A DNA stretch of 60,040 nucleotides from an uncultured Psychroflexus sp. (GTDB taxonomy: Bacteria; Bacteroidota; Bacteroidia; Flavobacteriales; Flavobacteriaceae): positions 1-60,040 of the forward strand of contig CAJXVZ010000014.1 in NCBI GenBank assembly GCA_913062845.1, read 5' to 3'. The position numbers and the translations under genes are program-made. This document shows, one piece after another, positions 16,575-57,935 of the stretch (its first letter is position 1; every line of letters begins with the position of its first letter). The notes under the pieces are model-generated. The model ran no database searches. It was given only the letters and a program-made list of their open reading frames with translations, and had not been told where the DNA came from.

Positions 16575-17564
16575 ATGTCAAAACCACTTTTAGAATTTAA
16601 CAATAAAGGTATCTATTGCGCCAAGGCTGACGTTTATATAGATGCCTGGCGGCCTGTAAAAAAGGTCATCATCACTCACGGGCATGCCGACCATTCAAAA
16701 TTCGGACATCAGAAATACATCACACACCATTTGAACATACCTATCATCAAACACAGGCTAGGCGATATTAATGTCACCGGTGTAGAATGGGGAGAAACCT
16801 TCAGTATTAATAGTGTGAAATTCAGCCTGCATCCTGCGGGACATATCATTGGCAGTTCTCAGGTCAGGGTTGAGCACAAAGGCGAAGTCTGGGTCTTTTC
16901 AGGAGACTACAAGACTGAAGACGATGGGATCTCAGGAGCCTTTGAGCCTGTAAAATGCCATAGCTTCATCACCGAATGCACCTTTGGTTTACCCGTGTTC
17001 AAATGGCAACCTCAACAAGAGGTTTTCGATGAAATGAACAATTGGTGGAAAGACAATCAAAAAAATAATATGACATCGGTTATCATGGTTTATTCTCTGG
17101 GAAAAGCACAAAGGGTTTTGAAATATTTAAACGCCGATATTGGAACAATATACACTCACGGCGCTATAGAAAACATGACCGATGTATTGAGAAAAAACTA
17201 CGACTTTCCGGAAACGGTTAAGATTACAAGAGAGACAAAAAAGAACGACTTGAAAGGTAATATAGTGATTGCTCCACCAAGCGCTCACGGCACTACCTGG
17301 ATGAGAAAGATGGTGCCCTATGTTACTTCGTCTGCGAGTGGCTGGATGAGTACCAGGGGCGCAAGACGACGAAGAGCCATAGACAAGGGTTTTGTCCTAA
17401 GTGACCACGCCGACTGGGATGGCTTGCTATCTGCCATTAAAACAACAGAATGTGAAAAAGTGATTTGCACCCACGGTTATACAGATATTTTTTCAAGATA
17501 TCTAAAGACATTAGGATATGACGCCAGAACTGAACAAACGCAATATAAGGAAGATGAGGACTAG
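16575..17564 (+). CDS. DNA ligase-associated exonuclease (MBL/beta-CASP fold)
   Basis: A 329-aa metallo-beta-lactamase-fold nuclease related to mRNA 3'-end processing factors, of the group that travels with bacterial ATP-dependent ligases (TIGR04122-like). The metal-binding motif THGHADHSK is intact, as are HPAGHIIGSSQ, SGDYKTEDD and a late SDHADWD. It should act in DNA end trimming together with the ligase encoded 710 bp downstream. In related genomes the pair is usually adjacent; here a repeat/GIY-YIG block lies between them. The partner helicase and metallophosphoesterase are not in the window. Confidence 0.88.
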   Translation: MSKPLLEFNNKGIYCAKADVYIDAWRPVKKVIITHGHADHSKFGHQKYITHHLNIPIIKHRLGDINVTGVEWGETFSINSVKFSLHPAGHIIGSSQVRVEHKGEVWVFSGDYKTEDDGISGAFEPVKCHSFITECTFGLPVFKWQPQQEVFDEMNNWWKDNQKNNMTSVIMVYSLGKAQRVLKYLNADIGTIYTHGAIENMTDVLRKNYDFPETVKITRETKKNDLKGNIVIAPPSAHGTTWMRKMVPYVTSSASGWMSTRGARRRRAIDKGFVLSDHADWDGLLSAIKTTECEKVICTHGYTDIFSRYLKTLGYDARTEQTQYKEDED

Positions 17565-17573
17565 GCCCCTAAT

Positions 17574-17630
17574 ACCGAAGCCGGTGACTTCGATACATTT
17601 TGCTTCCGCAAAACACTCAGTCACCTCGGT
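17574..17630. repeat. Palindromic repeat, copy A (left block, first arm)
   Basis: Nested inverted repeat. The outer arms are ACCGA (17574-17578) and TCGGT (17626-17630), the middle arms GGTGACT (17583-17589) and AGTCACC (17619-17625), and the inner arms TTTTGC and GCAAAA. It carries the core ACTTCGATACA...CACTCAGT in forward orientation and would fold into a long hairpin. Confidence 0.85.
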
Positions 17631-17670
17631 TAGGAATAAAAAATTATAACTATAAATCAAAAAAAAATCT

Positions 17671-17718
17671 GGTGGCTGAGTGAATTTTTCTGAAAGAAAA
17701 ATTTGTATCGAAGCCACC
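17671..17718. repeat. Palindromic repeat, copy B (left block, inverted arm)
   Basis: The arms GGTGGCT and AGCCACC enclose an inner inverted repeat AATTTTTCT/AGAAAAATT. It is in reverse orientation relative to copy A, so A and B form an inverted doublet around an AT-rich 45-nt spacer, ending 19 nt before the GIY-YIG start. Confidence 0.85.
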
Positions 17719-17737
17719 ATTTCGAAAGCAAAGTAAA

Positions 17738-18039
17738 ATGGCTAAAGGTTATATGTACATATTAGAATGTAATGATGGTACTTATTATACAGGAAGTACT
17801 AAGGATTTAGAAAGAAGATTAAAACAACATAAAGAAGGGAAAGGTTCAATTATACGGCAAAACGATTACCTGTTAAACTATTATATTACGAAGAATATGA
17901 TAGAATCGACAAAGCTTTTTACCGCGAAAAACAAATTCAGAGATGGAGTAGAAAGAAAAAAGAAGCATTAGTTAACGGAGCATCAAATCTGTTACCTCAA
18001 TTAGCCAAAAAAGTATTTATTAAGAAAACTGAAAAATGA
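17738..18039 (+). pseudogene. GIY-YIG nuclease gene with a one-base frameshift
   Basis: The first 36-37 codons encode a UPF0213/YhbQ-type GIY-YIG start: [26 protein letters not shown]. The open frame then drifts and stops at 17971. Shifting by one base at about 17848-17850 restores a full family C-terminus in the other frame, including [35 protein letters not shown] and NGASNLLPQLAKK, to a TGA at 18037-18039, total ~100 aa. One missing A in the TTCAATT stretch explains it. It may be a real inactivating mutation, a sequencing error or, less likely, programmed frameshifting. The gene is bracketed by inverted-repeat doublets. Confidence 0.85.
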
Positions 18040-18065
18040 AAACTATGACATTTTAATAATCAAAC

Positions 18066-18109
18066 CAGTGACTTCGATAGATTTTGCTTTCGCAAAACAC
18101 TCATTCACC
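18066..18109. repeat. Palindromic repeat, copy C (right block, first arm)
   Basis: A near copy of A in the same orientation: GTGACTTCGATAGATTTTGC, a short loop, then GCAAAACACTCATTCACC. The following spacer (TCGATTAGTGATAAAAATT onward) also matches the spacer after copy A, so the whole left block is duplicated here as a direct repeat. Confidence 0.85.
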
Positions 18110-18152
18110 TCGATTAGTGATAAAAATTATAATTATAAATTGAATAAAAATC

Positions 18153-18235
18153 CACTGGCTGAGCTAATTTTTAAATATTTACACCGGTGTTCGGTGGCTG
18201 AGTGATTTTTTCAAAAAAAATTGTATCGAAGCCAC
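18153..18235. repeat. Palindromic repeats D (partial) and E (right block, inverted arms)
   Basis: D (18153-18165, CACTGGCTGAGC) is a truncated start of the inverted arm. E (18193-18235) is a complete one with GGTGGCTGAGTG and TTGTATCGAAGCCAC. About 27 nt of AT-rich DNA ending in ACACCGGTGT separates them. E ends 39 nt before the ligase start. Confidence 0.8.
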
Positions 18236-18274
18236 ATATTTAAAACTGAAACGTAAACCTCATAAACTCAATAA

Positions 18275-19864
18275 GTGAAAAACTTCGCTCAACTCATACA
18301 AAAGATCGACAGCACCAATAAAACCAATGCTAAAGTAAAGGCTCTGAAAGAGTATTTTGATACAGCTGATGACAAGGATAAGATCTGGACTATTGCTATT
18401 CTCTCGCACAGACGTCCGCCAAGACCGGTTAACAGTACTCAAATCCGTGAATATGCTGGTGAATTGTCAAAAATACCGGCATGGTTGTTTGAAGAATCTT
18501 ATCATATCGTTGGAGATTTGGCTGAAACCATTGCCTTAGTGTTACCCAAAAACAACTCGGAAACAGAAAAACCACTGCATGAATATTTGGAAGATATTTT
18601 GGACTTGAAATCAAAATCTGACGATAAAAAAAAGAATTACCTTTTTAAACACTGGAAAAAACTAAATTATTACGAACGTTTTGTATTTACCAAACTCATG
18701 ACCGGTGGATTTAGAATTGGTGTAAGTCAGAAGTTGATGACCAGAGCACTTTCTCAATCTACTGGTATTGATCAGGACGTTTTAGCCTATAAATTAATGG
18801 GTAACTGGAAACCCCAAAACAGCACTTTTCAGTCTTTGATCTTAGAAGAAAATCCTGAAGACTACCTGTCTAAACCTTATCCGTTTTACCTGGCCTATGC
18901 CGTAGAAGGTGAGTTGAAAGATTTGGGAAATCCTGAAGACTATCTGTTTGAACACAAATGGGATGGCATACGCGCTCAATTGATTTGCAGAAATGATCAA
19001 CATTTCATCTGGTCACGAGGCGAGGAACTGGTCACTGATAAATATCCTGAATTGGAGACATTTAAAGAACAGTTACCCGAAGGAACCGTTCTGGATGGTG
19101 AGATCATCGCATATCCAAATAATGAAATTGGTGATTTTAAAGATCTTCAAAAACGCATTGGTCGTAAAAATGTCAGTAAATCTCTTCTGAAAAAAATACC
19201 CGTCATTTTTAAAGCATATGATATTCTGGAGTGGAAAGGTATAGATATTCGAAACAAATCCTTTGCTCAACGCCGAAAAGTGTTGGACGATTTATACGAC
19301 AAATTTAAAGATACCATAGCACCTTTTCACTTATCTGAAACCATGAGGTTTTCTGACTGGAAAGAAGTTGAAAAAGAACGTCAAAAGGCAAGGGAGATCC
19401 GATCAGAAGGTTTAATGATAAAACTGGTAAACTCTGAATATGGTGTCGGTCGCAAAAAAGGAGACTGGTGGAAATACAAATCAGACCCCTATTCGATTGA
19501 TGCTGTACTTACCTATGCCATGCGCGGTCACGGTCGTCGTAGCAATCTCTTTACAGATTATACTTTTGCCCTTTGGAATGACGACAAAAGTGAATTGGTA
19601 ACGTTTGCCAAAGCTTATTCAGGTTTGACCGATAAAGAGTTCCGCGAAGTAGATAGCTGGATCAAAAAGAACACTACAGACCGCTTTGGACCTGTAAGAC
19701 AGGTCGAACCCCACCATGTATTTGAAATTGCCTTTGAAGGCATAGCCGAGTCTAAAAGACACAAAAGCGGAGTCGCTACACGTTTTCCCAGAATCATTCG
19801 CTGGCGAAAAGACAAGAAAATTGAAGACGCCAATACATTAGAAGAATTAAAAGCATTACTCTGA
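18275..19864 (+). CDS. ATP-dependent DNA ligase
   Basis: A 529-aa bacterial ATP-dependent ligase of the PP_1105/TIGR04120 type. The N-terminal helical DNA-binding domain covers ~1-200. The adenylation domain has catalytic K228 in EHKWDGIR, then SRGEELVT, LDGEIIAY, SEGLMIK and WWKYK. An OB domain runs to the end. The GTG start at 18275 gives MKNFAQLIQKID, the family's usual N-terminus. It should seal nicks using ATP in a repair route shared with the upstream exonuclease. It is not the replicative NAD-dependent ligase. Confidence 0.93.
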   Translation: MKNFAQLIQKIDSTNKTNAKVKALKEYFDTADDKDKIWTIAILSHRRPPRPVNSTQIREYAGELSKIPAWLFEESYHIVGDLAETIALVLPKNNSETEKPLHEYLEDILDLKSKSDDKKKNYLFKHWKKLNYYERFVFTKLMTGGFRIGVSQKLMTRALSQSTGIDQDVLAYKLMGNWKPQNSTFQSLILEENPEDYLSKPYPFYLAYAVEGELKDLGNPEDYLFEHKWDGIRAQLICRNDQHFIWSRGEELVTDKYPELETFKEQLPEGTVLDGEIIAYPNNEIGDFKDLQKRIGRKNVSKSLLKKIPVIFKAYDILEWKGIDIRNKSFAQRRKVLDDLYDKFKDTIAPFHLSETMRFSDWKEVEKERQKAREIRSEGLMIKLVNSEYGVGRKKGDWWKYKSDPYSIDAVLTYAMRGHGRRSNLFTDYTFALWNDDKSELVTFAKAYSGLTDKEFREVDSWIKKNTTDRFGPVRQVEPHHVFEIAFEGIAESKRHKSGVATRFPRIIRWRKDKKIEDANTLEELKALL

Positions 19865-56621: not shown

Positions 56622-57935
56622 ATGACATCAACTAAGTCGAACTATAAGAGTGCCTTTCTGTTTATCACCATTTTATTCTTTTTATGGGGGTTTATTACCG
56701 TTCTGGTCGATAGCCTTATCCCACGATTGAAAGATGTTTTTGAAATGTCCTACGGCAGAACAATTTTGGTTCAATCTGCCTTTTTTATAGCCTTCTTTAT
56801 CGTTTCATTACCAGCCGGTAAGCTATTATCCAAAATAGGTTATAAAAATGGTATCATTGCAGGACTGCTTACAATGGCCACCGGATGTCTATTGTTTTAC
56901 CCGGCGTCGGCCTACCGAAATTTTAATGTTTTTATTGTTGGATATTTTACCCTGGCCAGTGGTATTACTATTCTACAGGTAGCGGCAAACCCATATGTTT
57001 CTCTTTTGGGTAGTGAGAAAGGCGCCAGTAGTCGACTTAACCTATCTCAGGCTTTTAATTCATTGGGCACTACCATAGCTCCTATAATAGGAGCACTGTT
57101 TTTGCTGAGTAGTTCTGTAAAATCTTCAGCTGAAATAAATTTACTTACCGAAGCAGAAAAGCTGAATTATTATGCAGAAGAAGCTGGTACAGTACAAGTA
57201 CCTTTTCTGGCAATAGCCATATTCATTGGATTACTCGCTCTTTTATTTTACTTCATTAAACTGCCTTCAGTGGTAGAAAAAAGTCCCCGTCAGGGCTACA
57301 CAGAACTTCTGAAAAACAAAAAACTACTGCTTGGTGCCTTGGGTATATTTGTATATGTAGGTGCTGAAGTTGCTATAGGCAGCAGTTTTCTGGTCAATTA
57401 TTTTGAAAGCATGAACCTCAGTGTAATTGTTGCGAATAATGGGCATATGATGTCTATTGCAAATACAATTGCTGATGTATTTAACCATTCGTTCTCCAAT
57501 TCAGATCCACGATCTCTGCTTGGCATATTTATTACCTTTTACTGGGGTGGTGCAATGATAGGTCGTTTTGTAGGTTCATACCTCACAAGGATTCTTTCGC
57601 CCGGCAAAGTTTTATCTTTTTTTGCATTATTGGCAATATGTATGATTCTGACATCCATCCTTACAGTTGGACTTGTTTCTATGTGGAGTATACTTGCTGT
57701 TGGACTTTTCAACTCTATTATGTTCCCTACTATTTTTTCACTAAGCTTAGAGGGTCTGGGAAATTTAAAATCACAGGCCTCCGGTATTCTTTGTATGGCC
57801 ATTGTTGGAGGTGCTGTGGTCCCTTTTATTTTTGGAAATATAATTGACAGCTATGGCTTTAAAATAGCTTTTATTTTCACAATAACCTGTTATGCCTATA
57901 TTTCTTTCTATGGCTATTACAAATCTAAAAATTAA
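56622..57935 (+). CDS. FHS/NagP-type MFS sugar transporter
   Basis: A 437-aa, 12-helix major facilitator of the fucose:H+ symporter family. It has WGFITVLVDSLIPRLKDVFEM at the N-terminus, AANPYVSLLG, ASSRLNLSQAFNSLGTTIAP, GAEVAIGSSFLVNY and a late GLGNLKSQASGILCMAIVGGAVVPF. Members import L-fucose, glucose/galactose or N-acetylglucosamine. Location after a GlcNAc-asparaginase favours GlcNAc, an inference from context. Confidence 0.85.
   Translation: MTSTKSNYKSAFLFITILFFLWGFITVLVDSLIPRLKDVFEMSYGRTILVQSAFFIAFFIVSLPAGKLLSKIGYKNGIIAGLLTMATGCLLFYPASAYRNFNVFIVGYFTLASGITILQVAANPYVSLLGSEKGASSRLNLSQAFNSLGTTIAPIIGALFLLSSSVKSSAEINLLTEAEKLNYYAEEAGTVQVPFLAIAIFIGLLALLFYFIKLPSVVEKSPRQGYTELLKNKKLLLGALGIFVYVGAEVAIGSSFLVNYFESMNLSVIVANNGHMMSIANTIADVFNHSFSNSDPRSLLGIFITFYWGGAMIGRFVGSYLTRILSPGKVLSFFALLAICMILTSILTVGLVSMWSILAVGLFNSIMFPTIFSLSLEGLGNLKSQASGILCMAIVGGAVVPFIFGNIIDSYGFKIAFIFTITCYAYISFYGYYKSKN

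Follow-up and report, generated by a model that had tools for sequence, protein, structure and literature searches.

REPINs are inverted pairs of short REP hairpins found with RAYT (TnpA-REP), a Y1 HUH transposase, and free-standing GIY-YIG homing endonucleases spread by breaking and repairing DNA. From Neisseria, site-specific single-stranded GIY-YIG nucleases of the Ssn family have been described together with cognate NTS repeats (reportedly in Nature Communications, 2025), the Ssn homologs reportedly having several specificities and different corresponding sequences, and the Ssn/NTS pairs reportedly forming sites that control DNA uptake or recombination.

The locus described here lies in an uncultured Psychroflexus sp. 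(genome G000), and was compared with each of these systems. As in REPIN/RAYT systems, inverted pairs of short hairpins flank a single resident nuclease gene, and some relatives carry many units clustered between genes; the resident protein, however, is a GIY-YIG protein matching PF01541 only and not a Y1 HUH transposase, and the locus is therefore not a REPIN/RAYT system. With Ssn/NTS it has in common a small free-standing GIY-YIG protein and a repeated palindrome as the likely recognition site. It differs in its inverted pairs, conserved unpaired core, variable stems and bracketing of the gene. Like the genes of GIY-YIG homing endonucleases, the gene may spread by DNA breakage and repair, but its likely sites flank the gene itself and are palindromes that are also found elsewhere, and the homing endonuclease model TIGR01453 gave only 21.1 bits (cut-off 56.05). 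In the accessible part of the open-licence literature, preprints not included, no link of GIY-YIG proteins to REP or REPIN sequences was found, nor were six core sequences found in print. The initial, sequence-only reading of the locus had spoken of a new kind of REP-mobilising system, which is too strong a claim given that GIY-YIG nucleases with cognate repeats (Ssn/NTS) have reportedly been published; what would be new relative to Ssn is the arrangement of REPIN-like doublets with a conserved unpaired core that bracket the gene.

The features of the locus are as follows, with positions numbered within the window, by which we mean the whole stretch of DNA that was analysed (60,040 nucleotides); R1 is a covariance model of the hairpin.

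16575..17564, plus strand: ligase-associated DNA damage response exonuclease, left neighbour (NCBIfam TIGR04122, 463.5 bits, cut-off 325)
17583..17625, plus strand: hairpin unit A, consisting of arm GGTGAC, TTCGATACA, inner stem, CACTCA and arm GTCACC (R1 68.4 bits)
17626..17670, no strand: AT-rich spacer of the first doublet, resembling the second-copy spacer and the spacer in sister genome G401
17671..17718, minus strand: hairpin unit B, the inverted partner of A (R1 58.1 bits)
17738..18040, plus strand: UPF0213-like gene for a GIY-YIG nuclease, with a frameshift near 17850 (PF01541; second frame via tblastn)
18067..18109, plus strand: hairpin unit C, a copy of A (85% over 73 nt) with one arm mismatch (R1 59 bits)
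18110..18150, no strand: AT-rich spacer of the second doublet (82% match to the first block)
about 18151..18184, minus strand: half unit D, the first half of B copied and broken off before E (ends by eye)
18193..18236, minus strand: hairpin unit E, complete and inverted (R1 62.4 bits)
18275..19864, plus strand: cisplatin damage response ATP-dependent DNA ligase, right neighbour (NCBIfam TIGR04120, 617.7 bits, cut-off 400)

The gap between exonuclease and ligase measures 710 bases in the window. Positions 17570-17642 are 85% identical to 18054-18126, and 17639-17689 are 82% identical to 18122-18172, both matches with a start-to-start distance of 483-484 bp, so that the duplicated block (17570-17689 and 18054-18172) includes the spacer and half of B. 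Unit E occupies the point where the copy of B breaks off, and the simplest reading is that a single doublet was duplicated to the far side of the GIY-YIG gene. The layout recognised by the sequence-only reading, in which two matching blocks of palindrome, spacer and inverted palindrome flank the gene, was thus confirmed in all its parts, with the half copy D in addition; the AT-rich spacer that it had described as conserved has its second copy within the 82-85% identical duplicated block, and the pairs that it had likened to REPINs (A-B and C-D/E) each consist of two REP-type hairpins that face opposite ways across a short spacer. Of the four matches that a strict unit finder returned in the 60-kb window, three are A, B and E and the fourth, at 57100, looks accidental; C was missed because of its arm mismatch. 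Model R1 scored all four full units (A, B, C and E), matches that follow by construction, as three of its nine training rows, and C in addition, are these units.

The first frame of the GIY-YIG gene matched PF01541 at 5.8e-11. This frame runs from 17738 to about 17850; beyond that point the remainder of the domain is encoded in a different frame, as far as about 18040, so that the gene is either frameshifted or affected by an assembly error. The sister genome G401, whose exonuclease is 90% identical, carries at the same site an open GIY-YIG frame with 84% identity to the window gene; there, doublet A-B is in place, B pairs less well and the far hairpin is reduced to a remnant (both by eye). 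The PF01541 domain and the conserved residues, the latter taken from 15 homologs, place the protein in the GIY-YIG superfamily. Residues Tyr 7, Tyr 17, Gly 19, Arg 27, His 31 and Glu 64, which have a catalytic role in this superfamily, were invariant across these homologs, in an alignment with 27 invariant columns. In the G401 copy the first-motif Tyr 7, otherwise invariant among the 15, is replaced by serine. In place of the broken window protein, homolog L019 was used for a structure match by phmmer, and gave 1.3e-12 to 1zg2 and 9.9e-11 to 1ywl, two UPF0213 structures that have the domain in common with it and whose entries mention no repeat association. Four GIY-YIG proteins tried against NCBIfam were not named above cut-off, and one tried against PHROGs received no name.

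Comparison of the window and G401 copies gave a dN of 0.097 and a dS of 1.58, and the protein has therefore probably been under selection for most of the time since the two copies separated. The dS was uneven, at 0.295 over the first 37 codons and saturated, without a value, over the other 62, for which local gene conversion is one possible reason. Low dN/dS and the 27 invariant columns also fit an explanation in which the palindromes are host signals, for example for the control of DNA uptake or recombination, and the nuclease has been domesticated, so that the pair is kept by its function and not by selfish spread. This explanation, which we regard as possible though somewhat doubtful, sits poorly with the lesions in both copies at the exonuclease-ligase site, and the contexts of other copies bear on it further below.

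The hairpins follow one design: the arms are complementary and vary in sequence, the unpaired core (TCGATACA/CACTC) is largely conserved, and the inner stem varies again. Across nine units from four genomes, TTCG.TA and ACTCA were kept without exception, and the most conserved letters were the unpaired ones. In the same units 95.6% of cells were paired (5 of 114 were not), and changes on both sides of a pair were seen in 24 cells, as against 7.0 +/- 2.0 in shuffles, with no one-sided change. The stems thus vary by compensatory substitution, beyond what chance would give. Pairing was also seen in 273 units near 80 named homologs that had been picked by the core CTTCGR..CTCAG alone: arm positions 1-4 were paired in 86, 87, 73 and 64%, positions 5 and 6 in 44 and 36%, and positions 3-5 jointly in 60% when in register compared with 22-32% when slid. 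For the TACA-type inner stem, 44 of 56 cells were paired, compared with 16-36% when slid. G-T pairs made up 2-3% at arm positions 1-5 and 14% at position 6 of the 273 units, a rarity which suggests, but does not prove, that the relevant form of the hairpin is DNA and not RNA. We think it highly improbable that the hairpins act as terminators of transcription or as RNA processing sites: they are stem-loops and lie mostly at gene ends, as such sites would, but their compensatory changes include hardly any G-T/G-U steps, their most conserved letters are unpaired, and units occur in both orientations and in some cases inside ORFs.

The association of such palindromes with GIY-YIG genes was then sought beyond the window. 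A protein search gave matches in 180 of 397 family genomes at E <= 1e-12. At the 29 best other loci of these 397 genomes, 56 strict units lay in 20.2 kb of near flank (300 bp upstream and 400 bp downstream); the far flank, 50.4 kb in all, had 6, and 20 mononucleotide shuffles gave none. How units and patterns were defined had been settled after the first loci had been inspected. Strict units were present at 25 of the 29 loci, and on both sides at 15; five of the six far-flank units belong to L021, which carries a second copy of the gene, and the loci lacking a strict unit (L019, L022, L024 and L045) have looser versions by eye. Among named genomes, the sample consisted of the best 80 of at least 552 confirmed relatives by protein similarity, and with a looser finder 79 of these 80 homologs had units at 350 bp or less from the gene, 56 of them on both sides, for a total of 337 units compared with 2-7 per mononucleotide shuffle. 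After removal of the five of the best 80 that duplicate loci already seen, the figures were 74 of 75 with units, 51 on both sides and 320 units. The single exception, L161, has no unit in the upstream 350 bp, and its sequence ends 19 bp past the gene. Unit density was 9.31 per kb at 0-150 bp and 0.21-0.47 per kb beyond 600 bp; outside ORFs, it was 9.53 per kb near the gene and 0.86 far from it. The record titles of the best 80 homologs include Bacteroidetes, Spirochaetia, Ignavibacterium, Calditrichia, Chlorobiaceae, Anaerolineales, Oculatella and Desulfoprunum, many of them for metagenome bins that may be misplaced.

Palindromes of one recognisable design therefore bracket such enzymes nearly always, and the enrichment beside GIY-YIG genes that the sequence-only reading had asked about is a general pattern (79 of 80 homologs, often on both sides). 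A cognate repeat around the gene, a mark of Ssn, is in these 79 of 80 cases a finding at the level of sequence. The association suggests that the GIY-YIG enzyme and the palindromes work together, and perhaps that they spread together.

The palindromes also tended to differ with the clade of the protein. CTTCGR..CTCAG was found near 35 of 37 clade I genes, with 125 matches in 29.4 kb of near sequence and 10 in 64.8 kb of far sequence; TTCTCGA..CTCGAA was found near 8/8 clade II and 7/7 clade III genes, two clades with a common arm code and a different inner type; and CTGAA..TTCAG was found near all three clade IV genes. The exceptions were TTCTCGA..CTCGAA at 3 of the 37 clade I loci (4 units) and CTTCGR..CTCAG, which also occurs at 3 of the 8 loci of clade II and at 3 of the 7 of clade III. 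When mapped on a tree of 57 proteins (94 alignment columns, with many forks unresolved), inner repeat type changed 14 times compared with 31.7 times in shuffles that ignore relatedness, with 0 of 200 as low; in this typing of 57 rows, 1 mixed row and 5 rows without a type were counted as groups of their own, and 11 changes were found without them. Clustering on the tree was strong for the TACA and CTNCG types (0 of 500 shuffles as low) and weak for the CARG and GAG types (20 and 11 of 500, respectively). Genome G407 has two clade I genes (L121 and L137) that are surrounded by different repeat types, a difference for which descent of the host alone does not account. The repeat type at L047 was predicted by neither its protein nor its site. 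Taken with these exceptions, GIY-YIG clades tend to have palindrome codes of their own, as far as the loci compared indicate.

The exonuclease-ligase site was compared among relatives by seeking the ligase within about 1.5 kb of the exonuclease. Outside the genus, 7 of 8 relatives have the ligase after the exonuclease; within it, 8 of the 22 genomes whose exonuclease locus is complete do. The earlier assumption that the two genes usually sit together thus held in part. Thirteen of the 15 neighbouring pairs are without the GIY-YIG gene, which is present in G000 and G401 only, so that relatives do have sites of the gene-free kind that the sequence-only reading had proposed to look for; the gaps without the gene range from -4 to 310 bp, and no insertion ends could be defined by comparing gaps. 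Neither of the two outcomes that had been named as telling against the sequence-only reading, repeats that are not enriched beside GIY-YIG genes and a site that never changes, occurred as stated. In the next sister, G411 (exonuclease 86%), the gap is without the gene and contains one hairpin of the general class, with arms ATGC/GCAT (by eye). A hairpin standing there without a gene may mean that the hairpins at this site predate the gene, or that G411 has lost the gene.

Gene contexts were counted for 112 clade I loci after the removal of repeats L145 (the same DNA as L119), L185, L186, L196 and L220, in a rough count that took as neighbours the longest stop-to-stop frames within 1300 bp. The 100 non-repeated loci with both neighbours showed 82 distinct neighbour pairs, and at 53 of them neither neighbour was in common with another locus (48 with looser clustering). 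The commonest pairs were common to 8, 6 and 6 loci, and many copies have therefore been inherited rather than moving. In G403 a hairpin is nested in the tip of another twice over, in near-identical form (L112, 2253-2343 and 3653-3743), and in L021 two copies of the GIY-YIG gene lie 512 bp apart. Nested hairpins, tandem copies and the many gene contexts favour mobility of the hairpins and of the gene together with its hairpins. For the explanation by host signals, the same flanking gene pairs at 8, 6 and 6 loci from different genomes count in its favour, and the 82 pairs among 100 loci, the patchy distribution (a match at E <= 1e-12 in 180 of the 397 family genomes) and the nested and tandem copies count against it. 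As a separate observation, the clade I genes of L028, L120, L122, L137, L151 and L174 lie between hsdM- and hsdS-like type I restriction genes (by eye).

Copy number was assessed with the core CTTCGAN{4,6}CTCAG. Its median was 22 copies where the genome has a close homolog (E <= 1e-29; 38 genomes), 9 where it has a distant one (142 genomes) and 2 where it has none (217 genomes), the reversed control pattern having a median of 1. Within genera, genomes with a close homolog had the higher count in 24 of 27 cases, the lower in 2 and a tie in 1; for any GIY-YIG match compared with none, the count was higher in 42 of 56 genera, lower in 8 and tied in 6. The core is thus commoner in genomes that hold a close homolog (median 22 vs 2; 24 of 27 genera). 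At least one core match, chance matches included, was present in 322 of the 397 family genomes, with up to 121 copies in one of them. In G000 itself, the short core gave 20 matches and the control 4, R1 gave 5 matches (a lower bound, with 150 of 1740 candidates scored) of which 4 lie in the element, and a BLAST search of the 175-bp block against this genome returned the two blocks only. The search of this genome that the sequence-only reading had proposed thus showed hardly any dispersal of this subtype beyond the element (1 of 5 R1 matches, as a lower bound). Such confinement fits a recent arrival with a failed nuclease, or a line in which dispersed copies have been lost. In G401, R1 gave 2 matches, both at the exonuclease-ligase site, and in G399, G419, G403, G402, G349 and G404 it gave 21-57, all lower bounds from the 150 candidates scored per genome.

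Three of these R1-rich genomes (the genus members G399, G419 and G402, with 57, 52 and 26 matches, respectively, as lower bounds) have no clade I gene; G399 and G419 have other GIY-YIG clades instead, and G402 has one with stops. Such genomes, together with the 12 of 15 hairpin-cluster stretches that contain no GIY-YIG gene (L101-L108, L110, L111, L114 and L115), would be expected if the hairpins were spread by another enzyme and small GIY-YIG genes merely settled in hairpin-rich intergenic DNA as safe sites. We consider this unlikely: a tendency towards codes by clade, seen even for L121 and L137 within G407, is not expected of a passenger, and unit density drops with distance from the GIY-YIG gene. 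Integron-like cassette arrays, considered for the same-strand R1 runs of G399 (C10), were rejected, as three G399 stretches proved to be hairpins among ordinary-looking genes. One hairpin-rich stretch of G399 (L102, 3773-5739) also contains small toxin-antitoxin-like genes (by eye).

Other small GIY-YIG matches were noted in G000 and its relatives. In G000, six of them (L012 1175-1461, L007 1180-1838, L015, L004 1252-1444, L001 1773-1858 and L008 1270-1341) adjoin tRNA genes (Leu, Asn, Met, Ser, Cys); L012, L007 and L004 contain partial tRNA copies, in L012 and L007 with a short palindrome inside the partial tRNA (by eye), and at C3 a GIY-YIG gene and a tRNA end are duplicated in tandem. These look like a second, tRNA-riding kind of GIY-YIG element. 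Also in G000, the GIY-YIG gene of L003 lies among CTGAA..TTCAG palindromes (19 overlapping matches in 800 bp) and that of L006 among ATTCC..GGAAT palindromes (2 matches). At L005 a GIY-YIG match lies between 79% identical copies (1384-1474 and 1744-1834) of the apparent start of a sugar-epimerase-like gene (name by eye). At L025, L033, L039, L044 and L047, the GIY-YIG frame stays open for 417-459 residues into a mevalonate-kinase-like gene, and at L045 it is open for 904 residues inside an hsdR-like frame (both by eye); in all six, hairpin DNA is read as a linker in a long open frame.

Given the anatomy of the locus, the compensatory changes in the stems, the association across many genomes, the tendency towards clade codes, the gene-free sites and the two lesions, all of which were observed directly, we consider it likely that the locus is a decayed unit of a nuclease and its cognate palindromes, whose enzyme probably recognises and cuts the surrounding hairpin and which has spread by repair; recognition, cutting, loss of activity and spread are what we infer. 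The recognition site would probably be the surrounding hairpin, in which two stems, free to vary as long as they pair, enclose the largely conserved unpaired core (TCGATACA and CACTC). The nuclease would probably cut hairpin DNA that has become single-stranded, be it in replication, in repair or in DNA uptake. If the break is then repaired from another copy, the palindromes would stay paired and be duplicated in place, and the gene would sometimes be copied with its flanking hairpins to another location. The unit probably entered the exonuclease-ligase gap before G000 and G401 separated, after which the window gene would have lost its frame and the motif tyrosine of the G401 copy would have changed to serine. 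Against this account of the locus stand the near confinement of the hairpin subtype to the element in G000, the R1-rich genomes without a clade I gene, the impure clade code, the weak clustering of the CARG and GAG types, the exception at L047, the flanking gene pairs common to 8, 6 and 6 loci, and the 2 of 27 genera with fewer copies in genomes that have a close homolog.

A wider proposal is put forward tentatively, as one whose chances we place somewhat below even. The TCGA...CTC palindromes may be the mobile parts of a transposase-free element, in which a small GIY-YIG nuclease (about 90 residues) recognises the unpaired core of a DNA hairpin and spreads the hairpins and itself by breakage and repair, with each clade driving its own code; this would constitute a REP-mobilising class separate from RAYT. 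To our knowledge, no owner of the CTTCGA...CTCAG palindromes is generally accepted. Their link to one particular small nuclease, with a match between clade and code that can partly be read, makes their origin and spread testable, and the concept of REP and REPIN would thereby extend beyond HUH transposases.
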